A stretch of DNA of 64,000 bases from Glutamicibacter creatinolyticus (lineage in GTDB: Bacteria; Actinomycetota; Actinomycetes; Actinomycetales; Micrococcaceae): positions 2,852,001 to 2,916,000 of the forward strand of contig NZ_CP034412.1 in the NCBI RefSeq assembly GCF_006094275.1. The letters are read 5' to 3'. The translations under genes and the position numbers were made by a program. The notes below the pieces were generated by a model that was not told where the DNA came from, ran no database searches, and saw nothing but the letters and a program-made list of their open reading frames with translations. Numbering within the stretch: the first letter of the stretch is position 1; every line of letters starts with the position of its first letter. Positions 13,576-31,540 of the stretch are shown one piece after another.

Positions 13576-14339
13576 CCCAGCATCTCGCGCACGCCACTGG
13601 CCAGCAGGGTCAGCGCCCCGGCGAACGCGATGATCACCACGAAGGCGCGGCTGACCTTGTGCGGGATTTTTGGGGCCAGCCAGTTGCCCAGCAGGATGCC
13701 GCACACCATGGCGATGGCGCAGCCCACCCACTGGCTCCAGTGCAGCTGCGGCATCCCGCCCTTGGCGATCAGCGAGGCAATGGAGAGCACAAAGAAGTAC
13801 AGCTGCACCGAGATCGCGAACTTCGCCTGCGGCCAGCGGCTGGCCACCGCGTAGGCGGCAATCGCCGGACCGGAGACCGCCGCGGTGACCGACATGAACC
13901 CGGACACCGCCCCGGCTCCAATGGCCAGTCCCTTGCTGTCGGCGGATTTCAGGTTCCGCAGCAGGAAGCTGGATCCCAGGGCCAGCATCACCATCAAGGC
14001 GATGGCGATGGAAAGTTTTGGTCCGCCCAGCTGGCTGGCGACCCAGGCGCCGGGGATGGTCATGATCACCGCCGGGACCAGCAGCAGCATGACCTTGCGG
14101 TATTCCACCTCACGGAACACCTGGGCCAGGATCAAGAAGCTGCTGCAGGTGCCCAGGAAGTTCACCAGCATGACCCCATCGAAGGGGCCGAGCACCATCA
14201 CGATGAAGGGTGAGGAGACCAGGGCGAAACCCATCCCGCTCACCCGCTGGGTCGAGGCGCCCACGAAGGTGGCGGCGCTGAGTGCGAGAATTGCACCGAT
14301 TGTCACCGTACCCACCGAGCGCGCCCTCCCAAAAGACAT
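13572..14339 (-). CDS. TSUP family (TauE/SafE) sulfite/organosulfonate-type permease
   Basis: A 255-residue membrane protein with about eight helices. It has the two-fold repeat typical of the family, with Gly/Pro-rich segments near GMGFALVSSPF in the first half and AVSGFMSVTAAVSGPAIAAY in the second. Members move small anions across the cytoplasmic membrane; the substrate here is unknown. The stop codon overlaps that of the convergent lyase gene by four bases, so no terminator can lie between them. The permease remnant downstream (14402-14674) is unrelated. Confidence 0.88.
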   Translation of the reverse strand: MSFGRARSVGTVTIGAILALSAATFVGASTQRVSGMGFALVSSPFIVMVLGPFDGVMLVNFLGTCSSFLILAQVFREVEYRKVMLLLVPAVIMTIPGAWVASQLGGPKLSIAIALMVMLALGSSFLLRNLKSADSKGLAIGAGAVSGFMSVTAAVSGPAIAAYAVASRWPQAKFAISVQLYFFVLSIASLIAKGGMPQLHWSQWVGCAIAMVCGILLGNWLAPKIPHKVSRAFVVIIAFAGALTLLASGVREMLG

Positions 14340-14401
14340 TGTCCGGGACTGAAACCAGCCCCGGACAACGCTACCTCATTGGCTGTCAGGGCGACCGGGG
14401 C

Positions 14402-14674
14402 CTAGTTCCCCGGCCCCGGCTCGGCCGGCGCACACTGGGCAACCGTGGTGTAGAAGCGGGGGCGGCGGTGCCGCGCCCGGATCAGGAACAGCGCCCCGGG
14501 GGCTAAGATCCCGGCGCCGACCAGGAACACCAGCCCAAACCCGCCCAGCAGCGGGGCGAGCCCGCGCAGGGTGCGGCGGAAGTACCAGACGCAGGCGAAC
14601 GCGGTGATCCCGTAGTAGAAGCAGATGATCATGCCCAACGCCAGGATGGTGTCATTCAAGACGTTCAGGGAAAC
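14402..14674 (-). pseudogene. C-terminal stub of an APC-family amino-acid permease
   Basis: The minus-strand frame ending at 14402 reads LNVLNDTILALGMIICFYYG, then a second helix and a basic tail. This looks like the last ~85 residues of an amino-acid/polyamine permease. Upstream the frame runs straight into transposase-derived sequence with no start or missing helices. The rest of the gene is gone, cut at about 14668-14675. The stub is GC-rich like the host chromosome, in contrast to the DNA to its right. It marks the left edge of the replaced segment. Confidence 0.75.
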
Positions 14675-14922
14675 AAAATGCCGCTGCTTTACGCAGCATT
14701 TCGTTCTCCATCTCCAGCTCCCTGATGCGTTTGAGTGCTTGGGGCATCTCCTTGCGCTCATCGGGATCAGCAGAGGAACTCATTCCAGGGGACTGGAACC
14801 GGGCATCACGCACACAGGTCTGCAGCGCGACTCTTCTATGTCTGTCAATTCGCAACCGGAAGCTCTTCAAGGAGTGCTACTGCATCGCGCTTGAACTCTT
14901 CGAAGTAGATTTTGGGGACGAT
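14675..14922 (-). pseudogene. Decayed IS3-family orfA (transposase helix-turn-helix protein)
   Basis: Two pieces of an OrfA are visible on the minus strand in different frames. An N-terminal piece at 14922-14845 reads VPKIYFEEFKRDAVALLEE and then meets a stop. A second piece, inside the frame 14870-14652, reads VALQTCVRDAR and then DERKEMPQALKRIREL, MENEMLRKAAAF, the leucine-zipper end of OrfA. The original ATG, the middle of the protein and all of orfB are missing, so the element cannot move. It is fused to the permease stub at about 14670. AT-rich DNA up to about 14985 may include the old IS end, but no second inverted repeat was found. Confidence 0.75.
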
Positions 14923-15014
14923 GACTCTCTACTTTTCAACACAACTTTACAAAAGTTATGCGGTCGAAGTGTCAACCAAACCTTCAGCAGGCCCGTCCAT
15001 GCGTAAGGCCGGAA

Positions 15015-15044
15015 CAGGATATGCCAGTTTCTCGGCACACCCTG
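15015..15044 (-). terminator. Stem-loop after the KAP NTPase gene
   Basis: An 11-bp stem with two G-U pairs (15015-15025 with 15034-15044, 8-nt loop) starts 17 bp beyond the stop codon of the KAP gene. On the minus strand it is followed by TTCC rather than a long T-run, so the call is moderate. Confidence 0.45.
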
Positions 15045-15060
15045 CTGAGTCGTTTACCTG

Positions 15061-18000
15061 CTAGCGCCCCAGAGCTTCGACGGCCGCTTGGTATGCTGCT
15101 GCCCTTTCTGGATTCCGAGGCTTGCGCTTCCTTGTTGACAACGCTCGGGGATCAGTCGTTTTGCTCCCCCGCACCGCTCTCGCGATAGCTGCTGTCACTT
15201 TGTCATTAGGTTCTTCCCCGATCCAGTGCTCGAGTGCACTTTCGACATCGTTTGCCACCACGCGGTCGAACTCGGGATCAGTGCGTGTTGCGTGGAGCAC
15301 GATAGCCGCACCGAGCGCTTCTCTTGCAGATCCTACTAGGAGCGGTTGCAAGACGGCTTTCACCTCGTTTCGTGTGTCAGCTTCAAGAGGAATAGTGATG
15401 AAAAGCCACTTGGTGGAGTGCTTCTCGGAAGCGCTGTCGAGCGTATCGTCGAGGATCGCTCGAATGGCGTCGGCGTACAGCCCTGGATCGGCCACTGCCA
15501 AAGCTTTCGCGAATGCAGAACGAGAAGCGTCTGGGACTGATGCCTCGGCTGTTTGATCCAGATAGGTTGCCCAGGTCGTTTTCGCTCGTTCCGATTCCAG
15601 CTCATCGCCACGGTCTGCGACGACCTTCATTGCATCCCTTGATCCGCTTTCTAGCGCAACCGTGACAGCATTGTCGAGTTCGAGGTGGTGCGTCAACGCA
15701 TCAACACGCTTTATGGTGTTGCTGTCAGGACCCTCACTAGCGACTAGGTCGTCGATCCGGGTGATGAATTGGTCGGCAACCTCCATACGGAGAAGCTGAA
15801 GATCAACGAGCGCCCAGAAATCTGCGGAGTCAAACTCGTTGACATAGCGCGCGAAGTTGCTGTTGACCGACGTCATGACTGTTGCAGACCACGCGAGTTT
15901 CGCCGTTGTTGCCAATGCGCGCTGCCGATGTGTGCCCCCGTGCGCCGCGACCGAGGTGAGAGCGTTGAGCAATTCGCTTTCTGTGGTAACGGAGACGAAC
16001 CCTGTCCCAATTACATCGGCCGCGGCGGTTGTCACTCCGTCTGTGAAGTCATAGTTGGTGCTGAACCAAGGCATCATTTCAGAGATCGCATCGTCAGCCC
16101 AATGTCTGAGCTCGTCGGAGGAGAATATGGATGCAGTGAGCCGACCAGCATCTTCCGGGGATCCGGAGACGCCAAACTGGGAGACCCATTTGTCGTGAAT
16201 TACCTGTCGTGCGGCAGATTCGAGTCGTCCAGCCAGAGTGGCGAGGTTCAACGCAGTGTCGACAAGGTCGACACCGGCACTGTCTGTTCCGTCATTGTCC
16301 GTAGACCAAGAGGTAAAGATCGCCTCAGCGAGCTTCTTCTGCCCTTTGGCTCCATGCTCTGCCATCGCTTTGATCACGGGAAGAGCCATCGAGCTGGCAA
16401 ACGTGCCTCCCGCGACCCAACCCGCGATCACATCGGCGGTGCGCCCTGTCGAATATACACGCTTTGGGCCATCGCCCGCGCCCCAACTTTGAATTCTGGA
16501 TGCGGCTCGAATGGCGAGGGCTACAGCTCCACTGAAGACTCTCGCGACCGGTGCACTGTCTTCTTTTACAGCTGTGGCACTCGCGGGAAGGGAGGTGTAG
16601 GTGAGGTAGGACAGCTGCTTTTCCGTCAGCTCCAACTTCTCGATTGCAACTAACGCGATCGCACATTCGTAGGTGTCTGCAGCGCTGCCGAGTGCCGTGA
16701 ACAAAAGTACTTCGTCAAGAGGTGCAGCAGGTTCAGTGATGCGGAAGGCAATGTCTTCGACCACGATAAGGTCTTCTTCATCTGCGGTGAGATCATCGTC
16801 ATCGCTCGCAGCCAGTTGAACTGCTTTCGAGAGAAGGCGGCTCGCAGTGCCGGTATCTAGATCCTCATGGTTCCAGTCAGCAAAGGATTCCCACGAGTCG
16901 ATGATCTCGATTCGCCGTTCCACCCACGTTTCAAACTCATCAGCACTGACTGCGGCGGAGATCAACTCACGCGCGCTCCAAACTTCCCCGTCGCTGTTTT
17001 CCTCGCTAGCATTGAGGACCGCCTTCCCAAGTAGACTGGCTGCTCCCGACGGTGCATTGCCAAGTATCGCGATTGCCCCGGCTACATCTGTAAGCGCATG
17101 CGGCCTTTGGCTGACGACGGCGCCAACTACTCTCGCGATCTCCGCGCTCCGCAGGGCTTCATTTCTCGTTGCTGCGGCAAGGAGCGCGGCCACCCCATTA
17201 TCTTGTTCTGCCGGGACAAGCTCACGAAGCACTGCAACAAGAAGTTCCCTGAACGATTCAGTGGATTCCATTCCGCCAGCGCGTGCTTCCTCTGCCAACC
17301 GCGCTAGCTCCGCAGACTGGTTGTTAGCGAGAGCCTGTCGCAGCGCTCGCGCATGTACGTTTCCGAGCAGTTGACTAAATCGATCTTGTCCCAGATAGAG
17401 GAAGGGCACATAGTCTACTTCCTCGGGGCCCCACCCAGCGGTTCGGGCGAGGTACCGGAATAATGGTGCGTTCTGCAGGTCGCTGATATCGAAGCCCGCC
17501 TTCGCGAGTGTGCTGTTCTCTTCAGCAGAGGCGTCAACCGAAGATGCTCGGGATCCCAATTCAATGAGATCCACGTCATTGAGTGCAGCTCGGAAAAACG
17601 CAGGATAGTCAGTCTTGAGAACTACCACTCGCGCGAGTACCTCGAGGTTCTTTGTCACAAGCCCATCTCGGAGAGATCTGGCGCCTGTGCGTAGTTCACG
17701 AGCGTGCGCAAGTCGGTAGTCGCTGCTGAACGCATTCAGAAGTCGAACTACGTGACGGGGGTCTCTCACATCATCGTGAATCAACATCATGATCACGTCA
17801 TCCATCTTCTGGCCGGCTCTTTCTGCGAGGGTGGTCGCCTGCTCATTGAGCAACGATCGGGCAAAGTCCCGCAGATCGAAAGTCTCGTGAACTGGAACTT
17901 CCTGCCTTAGGGTGAACAAGCGGTTGAGGAATTCGTGTGCGTCAGGGGTGCTCGCACCGTTGCCGTCCTCAATGGCAGACCGCACGATTTCCTCGTCAAT

Positions 18001-18879
18001 GGAGACGATGAAGATCGGTTGTCGGTCCTTCTTACACGTAAGCTGGAAGCTCCGAATCGCGTTCAACGCGGCAAGTATCTGCTCTTTCGAGAGCCGATCG
18101 ATGTCATCGACGGCCACGACGAGCCGAGTCTTGGCTTTATCAACCAGTGCTGCGAACGCTTGTTCTTGTTCGTCAGCTGCCTCGACCTTTGCTCGTTGCG
18201 TCACGCGCGCTCCGGATGCGAGTAGTCCTCCGAGGTTCACAGATCCAATGTCGATGCTGCTGCCGAGCCAGATGAATGGGGCAAAGAATGCGCCAGTCGT
18301 GACGAGCGGGATCACAAAGCTTGAGGTGGTTTTCCAGTTCTCGGGTGGCACCAGGAATGAGAGCAGCCCGATCAGCGCTGCCGCGCCGACCACTGCCAGC
18401 GCAATGTAGACGAGGAATCTGCTACGCGAAAGTCGTAGCTTCTCCTGTAGCTGGGTTGCGATTCGTCCGAGGGGCGAGAGCGCAAAGTCCGAAACGGTTA
18501 TTGATTGTGCGCTTCGCAGCGGTTCCAGGATCTCGTCAGCGTCCTTCGAGGAGACTTGTTTGGACGCAACGAGGGCTTCGGCGAATGCATATACGGCTGC
18601 GCGATGGAAGCCCACTGGTTCGTGACGCTCTGCCGACATCCTAATAAGGCCAAGGTTTCTGTCGCCTAGCAGCTTCGCACGGAGCAGCTCGATGATCGTG
18701 CTCTTACCCACGCCAAACTGACCGAGTAGGCCAATCATGCGCCGATGATTAGTGGGCTCGCTCACCATACGGTGCAAGTTGTCCGCGATGTCATCGTGTC
18801 CAAATGCGTCCTGGGACACTTCACCAACCGGTGCGTCAACGACAAACCAATTCCCGCTTGGGCGCACCTTTGCGCTCAT
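15061..18879 (-). CDS. KAP-family P-loop NTPase, membrane-anchored, with long helical C-terminal region
   Basis: A 1272-residue protein. Walker A is GQFGVGKST at residues 53-61 and Walker B is LVVAVDDIDRL at 253-263. Two predicted membrane helices (about 155-177 and 186-206) lie between them, the insertion that defines the KAP family (Kidins220/ARMS and PifA). After the NTPase come ~850 residues of mostly helical, Ala/Glu/Leu-rich sequence without a recognisable enzyme domain, possibly a sensor scaffold. The start at 18879 has AAGGTG eight bases upstream. Base composition is clearly more AT-rich than the flanks. It sits alone between a decayed IS3 orfA and a truncated TetR gene. PifA of the F plasmid blocks phage T7, so a defence role is plausible but inferred. 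Confidence 0.85.
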   Translation of the reverse strand: MSAKVRPSGNWFVVDAPVGEVSQDAFGHDDIADNLHRMVSEPTNHRRMIGLLGQFGVGKSTIIELLRAKLLGDRNLGLIRMSAERHEPVGFHRAAVYAFAEALVASKQVSSKDADEILEPLRSAQSITVSDFALSPLGRIATQLQEKLRLSRSRFLVYIALAVVGAAALIGLLSFLVPPENWKTTSSFVIPLVTTGAFFAPFIWLGSSIDIGSVNLGGLLASGARVTQRAKVEAADEQEQAFAALVDKAKTRLVVAVDDIDRLSKEQILAALNAIRSFQLTCKKDRQPIFIVSIDEEIVRSAIEDGNGASTPDAHEFLNRLFTLRQEVPVHETFDLRDFARSLLNEQATTLAERAGQKMDDVIMMLIHDDVRDPRHVVRLLNAFSSDYRLAHARELRTGARSLRDGLVTKNLEVLARVVVLKTDYPAFFRAALNDVDLIELGSRASSVDASAEENSTLAKAGFDISDLQNAPLFRYLARTAGWGPEEVDYVPFLYLGQDRFSQLLGNVHARALRQALANNQSAELARLAEEARAGGMESTESFRELLVAVLRELVPAEQDNGVAALLAAATRNEALRSAEIARVVGAVVSQRPHALTDVAGAIAILGNAPSGAASLLGKAVLNASEENSDGEVWSARELISAAVSADEFETWVERRIEIIDSWESFADWNHEDLDTGTASRLLSKAVQLAASDDDDLTADEEDLIVVEDIAFRITEPAAPLDEVLLFTALGSAADTYECAIALVAIEKLELTEKQLSYLTYTSLPASATAVKEDSAPVARVFSGAVALAIRAASRIQSWGAGDGPKRVYSTGRTADVIAGWVAGGTFASSMALPVIKAMAEHGAKGQKKLAEAIFTSWSTDNDGTDSAGVDLVDTALNLATLAGRLESAARQVIHDKWVSQFGVSGSPEDAGRLTASIFSSDELRHWADDAISEMMPWFSTNYDFTDGVTTAAADVIGTGFVSVTTESELLNALTSVAAHGGTHRQRALATTAKLAWSATVMTSVNSNFARYVNEFDSADFWALVDLQLLRMEVADQFITRIDDLVASEGPDSNTIKRVDALTHHLELDNAVTVALESGSRDAMKVVADRGDELESERAKTTWATYLDQTAEASVPDASRSAFAKALAVADPGLYADAIRAILDDTLDSASEKHSTKWLFITIPLEADTRNEVKAVLQPLLVGSAREALGAAIVLHATRTDPEFDRVVANDVESALEHWIGEEPNDKVTAAIARAVRGSKTTDPRALSTRKRKPRNPERAAAYQAAVEALGR

Positions 18880-19313
18880 TTACACCGCACCTTTCCACAC
18901 GCCAATACAACGCCATCTGTTCTCTCCACAGTAGCGATGACCCCAGCCACATGGACGGAGGTTAGGATGTGTCTGAAAATTGTCGCGCCCAGGCTATAAC
19001 TGCGTTGAGGATAACTGGGGCACGGTAGTGTTAGTCTCGTTACAATTGCCGACCCTCAGCACTCCACCGAACCATTGTCAGGCACTCCCTAGTTAAGCAG
19101 GGCTGACGCGAACATGTCATGTAGTCCCTCGGGTTGAACCTAGCACGCTCAAGCGAAGCTCAGCACTAGAGTTGAACCAAGAGACTCACTACACCTGCGT
19201 TGTTCATATTCACCTGACACGCATTCATACATGAAACTATCGTTGTGCTCGACTGACCTAAACCTTTAAAGCCACGTCAGCTTTTCCTGCCCCAGCTCAA
19301 CCCATCGTCAAAA
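18880..19313. other. Non-coding AT-richer spacer at the right end of the island
   Basis: This 434-bp stretch upstream of the KAP gene has no convincing open frame, tRNA or integrase. It contains the direct repeats TTGAACCTAG and TTGAACCAAG about 40 bp apart near 19130-19180, of unknown meaning. Base composition stays low until about 19340, where the GC-rich TetR coding sequence begins. The KAP promoter must lie in the first part, but no clear -35/-10 pair was identified. Confidence 0.5.
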
Positions 19314-19904
19314 GTGCTGCACGCATCAAGCCGAAAACTTCACTGGCCCGCGCCATCGGAGAAGGAGCTGCTCACCATTCCGCAACTGGCCAAGGCGCTG
19401 TCGGTGTCCGCTTCCTCGCTCTACAACCACGTCGGCGGCAAGGATGAAATCATCGAGCTGATGCGCGGTCAGGCCATGTCCCGGGTCCAGCTGCCCGAAG
19501 CGCCTGGCGGCCACTGGCGGGAAACCCTGCGGTTGATCGCGGTGTCCTACTTCGAGTCCTACTCCCGGCACCCGAGGCTAATCCCCCTGTTCACCAGCCA
19601 CACCGTGCGGGACCGCACCACGCTGCGCGTCTATGACGCCCTGGCCCAAACCCTGGCCGGTGCCGGCTTCGACCCGGCGGCACGGTTGACGGCGATCACC
19701 ATCATTGATTCCTTCGTCCTGGGCTCGGCGCTGGATGCGGCCGCCCCCGATGAGGTCTGGGCAGCCGATGTCGATTCCTCAGCGTCATTCACCGAAGCCC
19801 TCGAAGAGGGGCTGGGGTCGGCCGAACGCGCCGAGCAGACCTTCGGGCAGGGCCTGGACATCATCCTGGCGGGGCTCGAAGCCCGGGTTTCCGCGCGGGG
19901 GTAG
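19314..19904 (+). pseudogene. TetR-family regulator with missing N-terminus
   Basis: From about codon 20 the frame is a normal TetR protein: LTIPQLAKALSVSASSLYNH is the helix-turn-helix, followed by VGGKDEIIELMRGQ. The C-terminal domain resembles TetR_C_1 (TetR-like ligand domain) and runs to the end. The ~20 residues before the HTH (MLHASSRKLHWPAPSEKE) do not look like the usual first helix, and the DNA turns AT-rich there, at the island edge. The gene seems to have lost its true start and first helix when the island was acquired. A short, still translated protein cannot be excluded, but DNA binding would be doubtful. Confidence 0.7.
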
Positions 19905-19932
19905 CGGGCCCCTGATCCGCGCCGGGTTCAGA

Positions 19933-20967
19933 TCAGCTGGTGGCCGGGCGCTGCGGCGCGGAGGCGAAGAGGTTCAGTCCCAGCGCGCGGGAGAGGTGGC
20001 CGATGGCCAGCTGGGAGCGCACCGAGTTGCCGGCATTGTCCAGCAGCGGCGAGAACGCGCCGATCGCGCCCTTGCCCGGGGCCATGGCCACAATGCCGCC
20101 GGAGACCCCGGACTTGGCGGGGATGCCGATTTCAAAGAGCCATTCACCGGACTTCTCGTAGAGGCCATTGGTGGCCACCACGGCCAACACGTCCCGGCAC
20201 ACGTCCGCGGAGATTACCCGCTCCCCGGTGACCGGGTTGACCCCGCCGTCGGCGAGCGTGGAGCCCATGATCGCCAGGTCGTGGGCAGTGACCTTCAGCG
20301 CGCACTGACGGGTGTAGATGTCCACGATTTCCAGCGGTTCGCCCTCCAGCTGCCCGTGGGCCTTCAGGAGCCGGCCCAGCGCCTTGTTGCGCTCGTTGCT
20401 TCGGGATTCGGAGCGGTAGACCTCGCCGTCCATCTTCAGGTGGCGTCCGGCGAAGGCGGAGAGGCATTCGCGGATGTTCTCCCACTTCTCGGCCGCGGTC
20501 TGCCCCGGAACCAGCGCCGCGGTGGCCAGCGCCCCGGCATTGACCATGGGGTTCATGGGATGCCCCTCGTTCAGTTCAATGGCCATCACCGAGTTGAAGG
20601 ACATGCCGGTGTTGTTCACCCCGATGTAGTCGCGCACCGCGTCATGTCCCAGCTCCTGCAGGACCAGCGCGTAGACGAACATCTTGGAGATCGACTGGAT
20701 GGAGAACTCGTAGTTCACGTCCCCGGCGCACAGCACGTTGCCGCCGACGTTGGACAGGGCCACGGCAAACAGGGAGGGGTCCACTTCACCGAGGATGGGA
20801 ATGTAATAGGCCAGCATGCCTTCGTCGATGTCGGCGTAGCGGGCGTGCACATCCTGCAGCAGCTCCTCGATGCGAGCCTTTTCCGGCAGGGAGCCGGTGG
20901 AGACTTGCTGTTTGACATCACTGTAGTCATTTGGAATCACTGACGCCCCCTGTCCCTTGCCGTACAT
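19933..20967 (-). CDS. glsA: Glutaminase A
   Basis: A 344-residue glutaminase of the serine beta-lactamase-like fold that hydrolyses glutamine to glutamate and ammonia in the cytoplasm. The catalytic Ser-x-x-Lys is in FSIQSISKMF. The substrate-pocket segments NPMVNAGA and NGLYEKSGEW are present, and KSGVSGGI lies near the C-terminus. Length is slightly over the usual ~310 because of a ~25-residue N-terminal extension. The neighbouring genes (truncated TetR, Lrp-type regulator) are not obviously functional partners. Confidence 0.93.
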   Translation of the reverse strand: MYGKGQGASVIPNDYSDVKQQVSTGSLPEKARIEELLQDVHARYADIDEGMLAYYIPILGEVDPSLFAVALSNVGGNVLCAGDVNYEFSIQSISKMFVYALVLQELGHDAVRDYIGVNNTGMSFNSVMAIELNEGHPMNPMVNAGALATAALVPGQTAAEKWENIRECLSAFAGRHLKMDGEVYRSESRSNERNKALGRLLKAHGQLEGEPLEIVDIYTRQCALKVTAHDLAIMGSTLADGGVNPVTGERVISADVCRDVLAVVATNGLYEKSGEWLFEIGIPAKSGVSGGIVAMAPGKGAIGAFSPLLDNAGNSVRSQLAIGHLSRALGLNLFASAPQRPATS

Positions 20968-30679: not shown

Positions 30680-31540
30680 TCAAAAACGAGCGTTCTCGAG
30701 ACGCTTGTCAGCGGGTAAAGCGTACTCAGTGAAGTAACCGCATGTGGTGAATCCGAGGCGTCGATAGACCGGTTCCCCGTCCTCGGACGCCTGCAGCACT
30801 GCGGTCTCATAACCGGCCCCGAGCGCAGTACGCATTGTGGCCAGGGTGATGGCTCCGCCGTATCCTTGGCGGCGTTCTGATTTAAGCGTTGAGATGTTGT
30901 AAATACCAGCGACCCCATCGCTAAAGAAAACTTCAGCCGAGCAAACGGCCCGGCCATCAACATAGCCAACCAAGTAGCGCGCCGGGGAATCAGCGGCTAA
31001 AGCCGCGTCCGAAGCGTCGGCATAGAATCGCTTCACCGTAATCGCTGGTGGATTCCAGTTGGCGGAAAGCACGGTTGCATAATCAGCAAGTTCTTCTGGC
31101 GTCCTCACTAACCGTATTTCGAGGCCATCAACCTGCACTTCCGGAAAATTCCCCCGCAAGTCCTTCCACATGCCAGACTCAGTTTCAGAAGCCTCTAAAC
31201 CGGATTTCTCGAGGGAATGGGCCAGATCATCTGGAGCACTGGCGGAGCCAACCCACCATGAGAATGGGCGTTCGGTGGCACCCAGGGCCCGGAGCGTCTC
31301 TGCAACGCGAGTAGGTGCACTAGTGGCGGTGAAGCGGGCGGCCGCAACGATATTGAAAGTGTCGTCGCTGAGGCCGCTATCCGCAATCACCAAATCATCT
31401 GTTTCAGTAACAGTTGCACCGTCCAGGTGCCGGTGCAGATGGCACGCGTGCTCAGCCAAGTTCTGCTCCATAGCGAGTTGAAGACCAGGTAGATCAACTG
31501 ACGACTGATTATCCAATTCCATAATGATCCATCTAAACAT
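30680..31540 (-). CDS. GNAT-family N-acetyltransferase
   Basis: About 286 residues. The C-terminal half carries the GNAT fold with the acetyl-CoA loop [14 protein letters not shown] and the late strand [17 protein letters not shown]. The N-terminal half is probably a degenerate second GNAT domain. The substrate is unknown. The start may be the Met at codon 7 (31522), preceded by AGATGGA. Base composition is less GC-rich than the core genes, and the gene lies in a patch of small accessory genes, so it may have been acquired. Confidence 0.85.

Follow-up and report, generated by a model that had tools for sequence, protein, structure and literature searches.

A membrane-type KAP NTPase with a predicted helical solenoid tail on a foreign island of Glutamicibacter creatinolyticus, a candidate single-gene anti-phage sensor

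This study identified an intact gene for a 1272-aa KAP-family NTPase (15061..18879, minus strand) in Glutamicibacter creatinolyticus, which we consider rather probably to be horizontally acquired cargo encoding a stand-alone, membrane-anchored NTPase that would combine sensor and effector in one intracellular protein, most likely against phages. The protein has a KAP domain with its Walker motifs, a hydrophobic hairpin, a predicted solenoid and two halves that diverge unequally, and its gene is foreign in origin and rare. All positions refer to the window, that is, the whole stretch of 64,000 nucleotides that was analyzed.

Results

Starting with ATG, the 1272-aa frame is uninterrupted in the ORF list, and its residues 30-390 match the Pfam family KAP_NTPase (PF07693) with an E value of 1e-23 and 84.5 bits against a cut-off of 20, a score above the curated threshold for membership in the KAP P-loop NTPases. 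The Walker A motif GQFGVGKS (residues 53-60; 18700..18723, minus strand), identical in 4/4 full-length homologues, is followed by two hydrophobic helices (residues 152-206; 18262..18426, minus strand), seen in the hydropathy profile as segments 152-180 and 187-206, and then by the Walker B-type stretch RLVVAVDDID (residues 252-261; 18097..18126, minus strand), recognized by sequence and alignment. This is the layout of the KAP family, in which membrane helices between Walker A and Walker B are a feature of many members. Since the N-terminal structure model reached a pLDDT of only 48 and was set aside, the proposed membrane hairpin rests on hydropathy. An earlier note on this DNA had described a KAP-type protein with Walker A, two membrane helices and Walker B, and this anatomy proved correct. 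The gene is present in one copy in its own genome. A second KAP NTPase of 627 aa lies outside the window in the same genome (L071:1866-3749, minus strand, corresponding to G000:C1:1797365-1799248); it is nearest to QatA models (PADLOC QatA, E 5e-81) and directly follows paired type III restriction and methylase genes.

The C-terminal part of about 830 residues was modelled with AlphaFold2 from five sequences (residues 440-1272), giving a mean pLDDT of 83.6 and a pTM of 0.63. The first 67 modelled residues remained below a pLDDT of 50, and from about residue 507 onward an unbroken series of helices forms a predicted alpha-solenoid (residues about 507-1272; 15064..17361, minus strand). Foldseek and VIA-align listed karyopherins, SF3B1, CAND1, the PP2A scaffold and armadillo proteins for this model, at TM-scores no higher than 0.27 in a listing outside which other families may also match, so that no particular relative is claimed; the tail is predicted by the model to be an all-helical superhelix, probably of the HEAT/ARM-like class. 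The earlier note had called for searches with this region, and structure gave this predicted fold. Solved structures were matched by sequence at the level of P-loop background alone (E 0.077 and worse). Tail comparisons by hhalign with three other KAP proteins, from G034, Ensifer and Dietzia, were not significant (E 0.25, 0.068 and 0.43, respectively).

The two halves of the protein have diverged at different rates. Mean pairwise identity among the four full-length proteins is 72% in residues 1-151, 51% in 152-206, 76% in 207-435 and 60% in 436-560, and falls to 44, 40, 37 and 44% in the successive tail blocks beyond residue 560. The NTPase at 72-76% thus stands against a tail at 37-44% in an alignment that is almost gap-free, and the non-synonymous distance of residues 561-1272 is 2.4 to 3.0 times that of residues 1-435 in all six pairs. 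As dS between the homologues is saturated or nearly so, these distances do not distinguish the type of selection. A switch that binds through a superhelix would be expected to combine a conserved motor with a tail that changes fast at constant length, and the tail divergence may also reflect the drift of a repeat fold.

The composition and edges of the locus support a foreign, gene-disrupting KAP island. The KAP gene has a GC content of 0.569 and a GC3 of 0.597, and GC3 is 0.81-0.91 in eight other window genes. The lowest-GC segment of 4.7 kb in the window (0.56, in steps of 100 bases) starts at 14601 and holds the gene, which bears out the AT-rich surroundings described earlier. The DNA 5' of the NTPase gene (18880..19367) has a GC content of 0.52, no second copy in the genome and no similarity to the DNA upstream of the homologues. 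A GNAT-type acetyltransferase gene (30680-31540, minus strand) with a GC3 of 0.56 is a second case of foreign-looking composition in the window.

At the left edge, the C-terminal stub of an amino-acid permease (14402..14677, end approximate, minus strand), which matches congener permeases in L029, L030 and L031 (49-57% to the C-terminus of the complete permease, in 3/9 congener loci), is fused to an insertion-sequence remnant (14680..14995, minus strand). The remnant keeps the beginning of orfA and a single terminal repeat, which is preserved at the 14995 end and faces the island. It shares 71% identity with a portion of an element of about 1285 bp at 254824-256108 in the same genome, and the two ORFs of that element have Pfam matches to transposase HTH and integrase-core families. 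We take the remnant to belong to IS3, toward which an NCBIfam match points weakly (E 0.047). At the right edge lies a TetR-family gene (19314..19904, plus strand) whose native N-terminus has been replaced: the match to Pfam TetR_N does not begin before profile position 17, and about 28 N-terminal residues present in congener TetR proteins are absent, which places the right break near 19360-19372. The earlier description of edges that cut host genes holds for both the permease stub and TetR, with the right break slightly past the former estimate of 19345, and the IS remnant at the left edge was confirmed with a family name that is less secure. No tRNA gene was found in the window, no Rfam match at 14300-20000, and no plasmid or integrase gene was recognized adjoining the KAP gene; promoter- and terminator-like patterns were as frequent as in shuffled sequences.

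A TetR orthologue (62-72% identity) is present in 14/17 congeners. Nine of these 14 loci were fetched, with ORFs listed for six of the nine; in the fetched stretches, TauE is present in 8/9 and the permease C-terminus in 3/9. The order in L029 and L030 is TauE, FAD oxidase, permease, deiminase, C-N hydrolase and TetR, with Pfam matches in L029 to DAO, AA_permease_2, PAD_porph and CN_hydrolase; the deiminase presumably acts on agmatine. Because these two loci carry the oxidase, permease, deiminase and hydrolase genes between TauE and TetR, the comparison indicates that an operon of apparent amine catabolism is replaced by the island, rather than one gene merely interrupted. All that is left from the operon side is the C-terminal piece of the permease and a TetR gene lacking its N-terminus. 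Other changes were observed at this site: near the permease position, congener G008 (L028:1462-2952, plus strand) encodes a protein of 496 aa whose domains are an IrrE-like peptidase and DUF4411, so that an insertion hotspot may lie here. Congener G009 (L033, 4773-8372) has lost the operon; its TetR match contains an internal stop and is followed by ORFs that read as transposase- and resolvase-like.

The gene was found in none of the 17 congeners (1/18 genomes of the genus, including its own). Comparison of the locus among relatives, as the earlier note had proposed, thus did not show the pattern that the note had named as refuting, namely core-like composition together with conservation of the gene in every relative. 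In a set of the source genome and 57 relatives, 2/58 matched at E 0.001 or better, namely the source itself and G034, which aligned over residues 13-438 at 32%; KAP domains in general occur in 8/58. The source genome was also the single match in the order sample (1/396 at E 1e-30 or better) and, with the tail profile, in the class sample (1/394) and the phylum sample (1/296). The tail profile matched 4/366 genomes in the genus of G072, taken as Microbacterium. In these order, class, genus, family and phylum searches, two or three candidates were scored per genome, and weak members were possibly missed. Three of the 366 carry full-length homologues with 58% (G1060), 51% (Leaf151) and 49% (G1050) identity to the window protein, and the fourth, G884, carries a tail-only copy equivalent to residues 493-1258 at 37%. 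This copy (L051:9652-11985, plus strand) begins at the equivalent of residue 493, with the NTPase half absent from the fetched stretch, and may be a remnant or a gene in its own right. The family of G072 gave weak tail hits in 2/398 genomes (E 4e-4 over about 100 positions and E 7e-4 over 86), which were rejected as too short for interpretation. A scan of a species-genome collection with six exact peptide patterns returned Microbacterium sp. Leaf151 alone. No copy was found in phage or viral records, one scan of which used two exact peptide patterns, and none of the six matching plasmid records covered 80% of the query, so no full-length plasmid homologue was detected.

The window neighbors of the KAP gene are TauE, the IS remnant and TetR. 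Co-location with defence genes, which the earlier note had proposed scoring, was weak among close homologues and absent in the window: 1/19 tested neighbors, picked by hand from 62 mechanical ORFs, matched a PADLOC model, as did 0/5 tested window neighbors. The one match is the candidate-defence protein PDC-M03B (E 4e-67) next to the G1060 homologue. Reading of the ORFs suggested mostly core-like flanking genes for the Leaf151 copy and for the distant G034 copy. The more distant plasmid KAP proteins of about 1090-1360 aa adjoin type IIG, HNH or Mrr-like nuclease genes, with 4/6 tested neighbors matching PADLOC (two only at E ~1e-5), and the one tested neighbor of a Haloterrigena KAP protein also matches; the plasmid records and their neighbors were picked by hand and give no measure of enrichment. 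These plasmid relatives also occur near integrases or IS21. In Leaf151, the KAP homologue has a PAD_porph-type deiminase gene (L003:18651-19685, minus strand) at a distance of about 4.9 kb. This deiminase gene belongs to the same Pfam family as one gene of the operon replaced in the lineage of the window, which may be a coincidence or a shared insertion preference.

Discussion

Several known systems resemble parts of this protein. PMC11846954 describes Tmn, a KAP NTPase that carries two membrane domains, as blocking several phages as a single gene, and states that its defence mechanism is unexplored, as PMC13273231 repeats. Like Tmn so described, the window gene is a single gene for a KAP NTPase with two membrane segments, and no defence partner gene was recognized alongside it; unlike Tmn, its family is actinobacterial, and the likeness to the published description covers the KAP domain and the layout. 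Plasmid KAP hits considered as Tmn candidates turned out to be QatA or unnamed KAP genes. PifA of the F plasmid, which the earlier note had offered as a precedent, shares the KAP domain (PADLOC PifA, E 3e-20), but the similarity is limited to the NTPase part: the best stretch aligns residues 215-387 with 146-316 of 720 positions, a second stretch also lies within the range of the Pfam KAP match, the membrane segment is skipped, and the tail is unrelated as far as seen. According to PMC8594841, PifA reportedly detects phage proteins and causes depolarisation of the membrane; the same paper doubts that it evolved for immunity and suggests that it may have another primary role. QatA of QatABCD likewise shares the KAP domain (NCBIfam QatA, E 8e-13), although at 47.9 bits against a cut-off of 600, with qatB, qatC and qatD absent alongside, the gene does not belong to QatABCD. 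By sequence, it is a KAP family member that is neither PifA nor QatA and resembles Tmn in part, in layout.

For the tail, PMC11263360 indicates that the HEAT repeats of DSR2 participate in phage-protein binding, and a long helical or HEAT region proposed to bind phage proteins is what the window protein, by its predicted fold, would have in common with DSR2 and other HEAT-repeat defence proteins. DSR2 differs in having a Sir2 NADase effector and no KAP domain, which makes this an analogy of design only. KAP ATPases can also substitute for STAND NTPases in predicted counter-invader systems (PMC8195603) and appear in Orc/CDC6-linked predicted systems (PMC10853773). This actinobacterial protein was unnamed in the open-access paper titles searched, and it may still be in print.

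We infer a topology, ligand, effector action and phage specificity for the protein as follows. The helix pair inserted in the KAP domain would hold the protein in the cytoplasmic membrane, and the C-terminal HEAT/ARM-like superhelix would bind a phage product. Ligand binding would switch the KAP NTPase, by a change of nucleotide state or by oligomerisation of the protein, upon which the membrane hairpins would disturb the membrane and the infected cell would halt ahead of phage release. The single-gene anti-phage role suggested in the earlier note is plausible and is strengthened by Tmn, by the predicted solenoid and by the distant KAP genes beside restriction or nuclease genes. Against defence stand the 18/19 homologue neighbors and 5/5 window neighbors without a PADLOC match, the mostly core-like flanks of the Leaf151 and G034 copies, the lack of phage or viral copies, and a tail that has no significant sequence similarity to those of three other KAP proteins and whose divergence may be drift.

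The same neighborhoods would suit an accessory membrane NTPase that serves signalling or scaffolding for stress or metabolites and is unrelated to phages, since the KAP gene stands alone, without recognized defence genes in the window, and its close homologues mostly have no defence neighbors; animal Kidins220 has a comparable layout. We nevertheless regard such a role as unlikely, as the very patchy distribution and foreign composition would be unusual for a housekeeping protein and the gene took the place of catabolic genes. It is improbable that the gene is functionless cargo decaying after an old transfer: all 1272 codons can be read through, both Walker motifs are preserved and the homologues keep their lengths almost gap-free at about 50% divergence, even though the adjoining IS piece has decayed and G884 has a tail-only copy. 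A function for mobile elements, in which the protein would exclude or compete with plasmids and other elements instead of phages, appears similarly improbable. The IS remnant at the island edge and the integrases or IS21 near plasmid KAP relatives are what such a function might predict, yet no plasmid or integrase gene was recognized next to the window gene, and the plasmid records (0/6 at 80% of the query) hold no full-length homologue.

For the anti-phage sensor that we favor, a further reading may be offered tentatively. The proteins could possibly represent a distinct and very rare family of actinobacterial one-protein immune receptors in which a membrane-embedded KAP NTPase is joined directly to a fast-diverging HEAT-like sensor superhelix, in an NLR-like manner, with the switch itself being the membrane-active effector and the whole travelling as single-gene cargo. 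Stand-alone membrane KAP defence is already known, and what the window gene adds is a real, foreign and intact gene with a receptor-like architecture. In this small family, the conserved motor is joined to a clearly bounded and strongly divergent tail.
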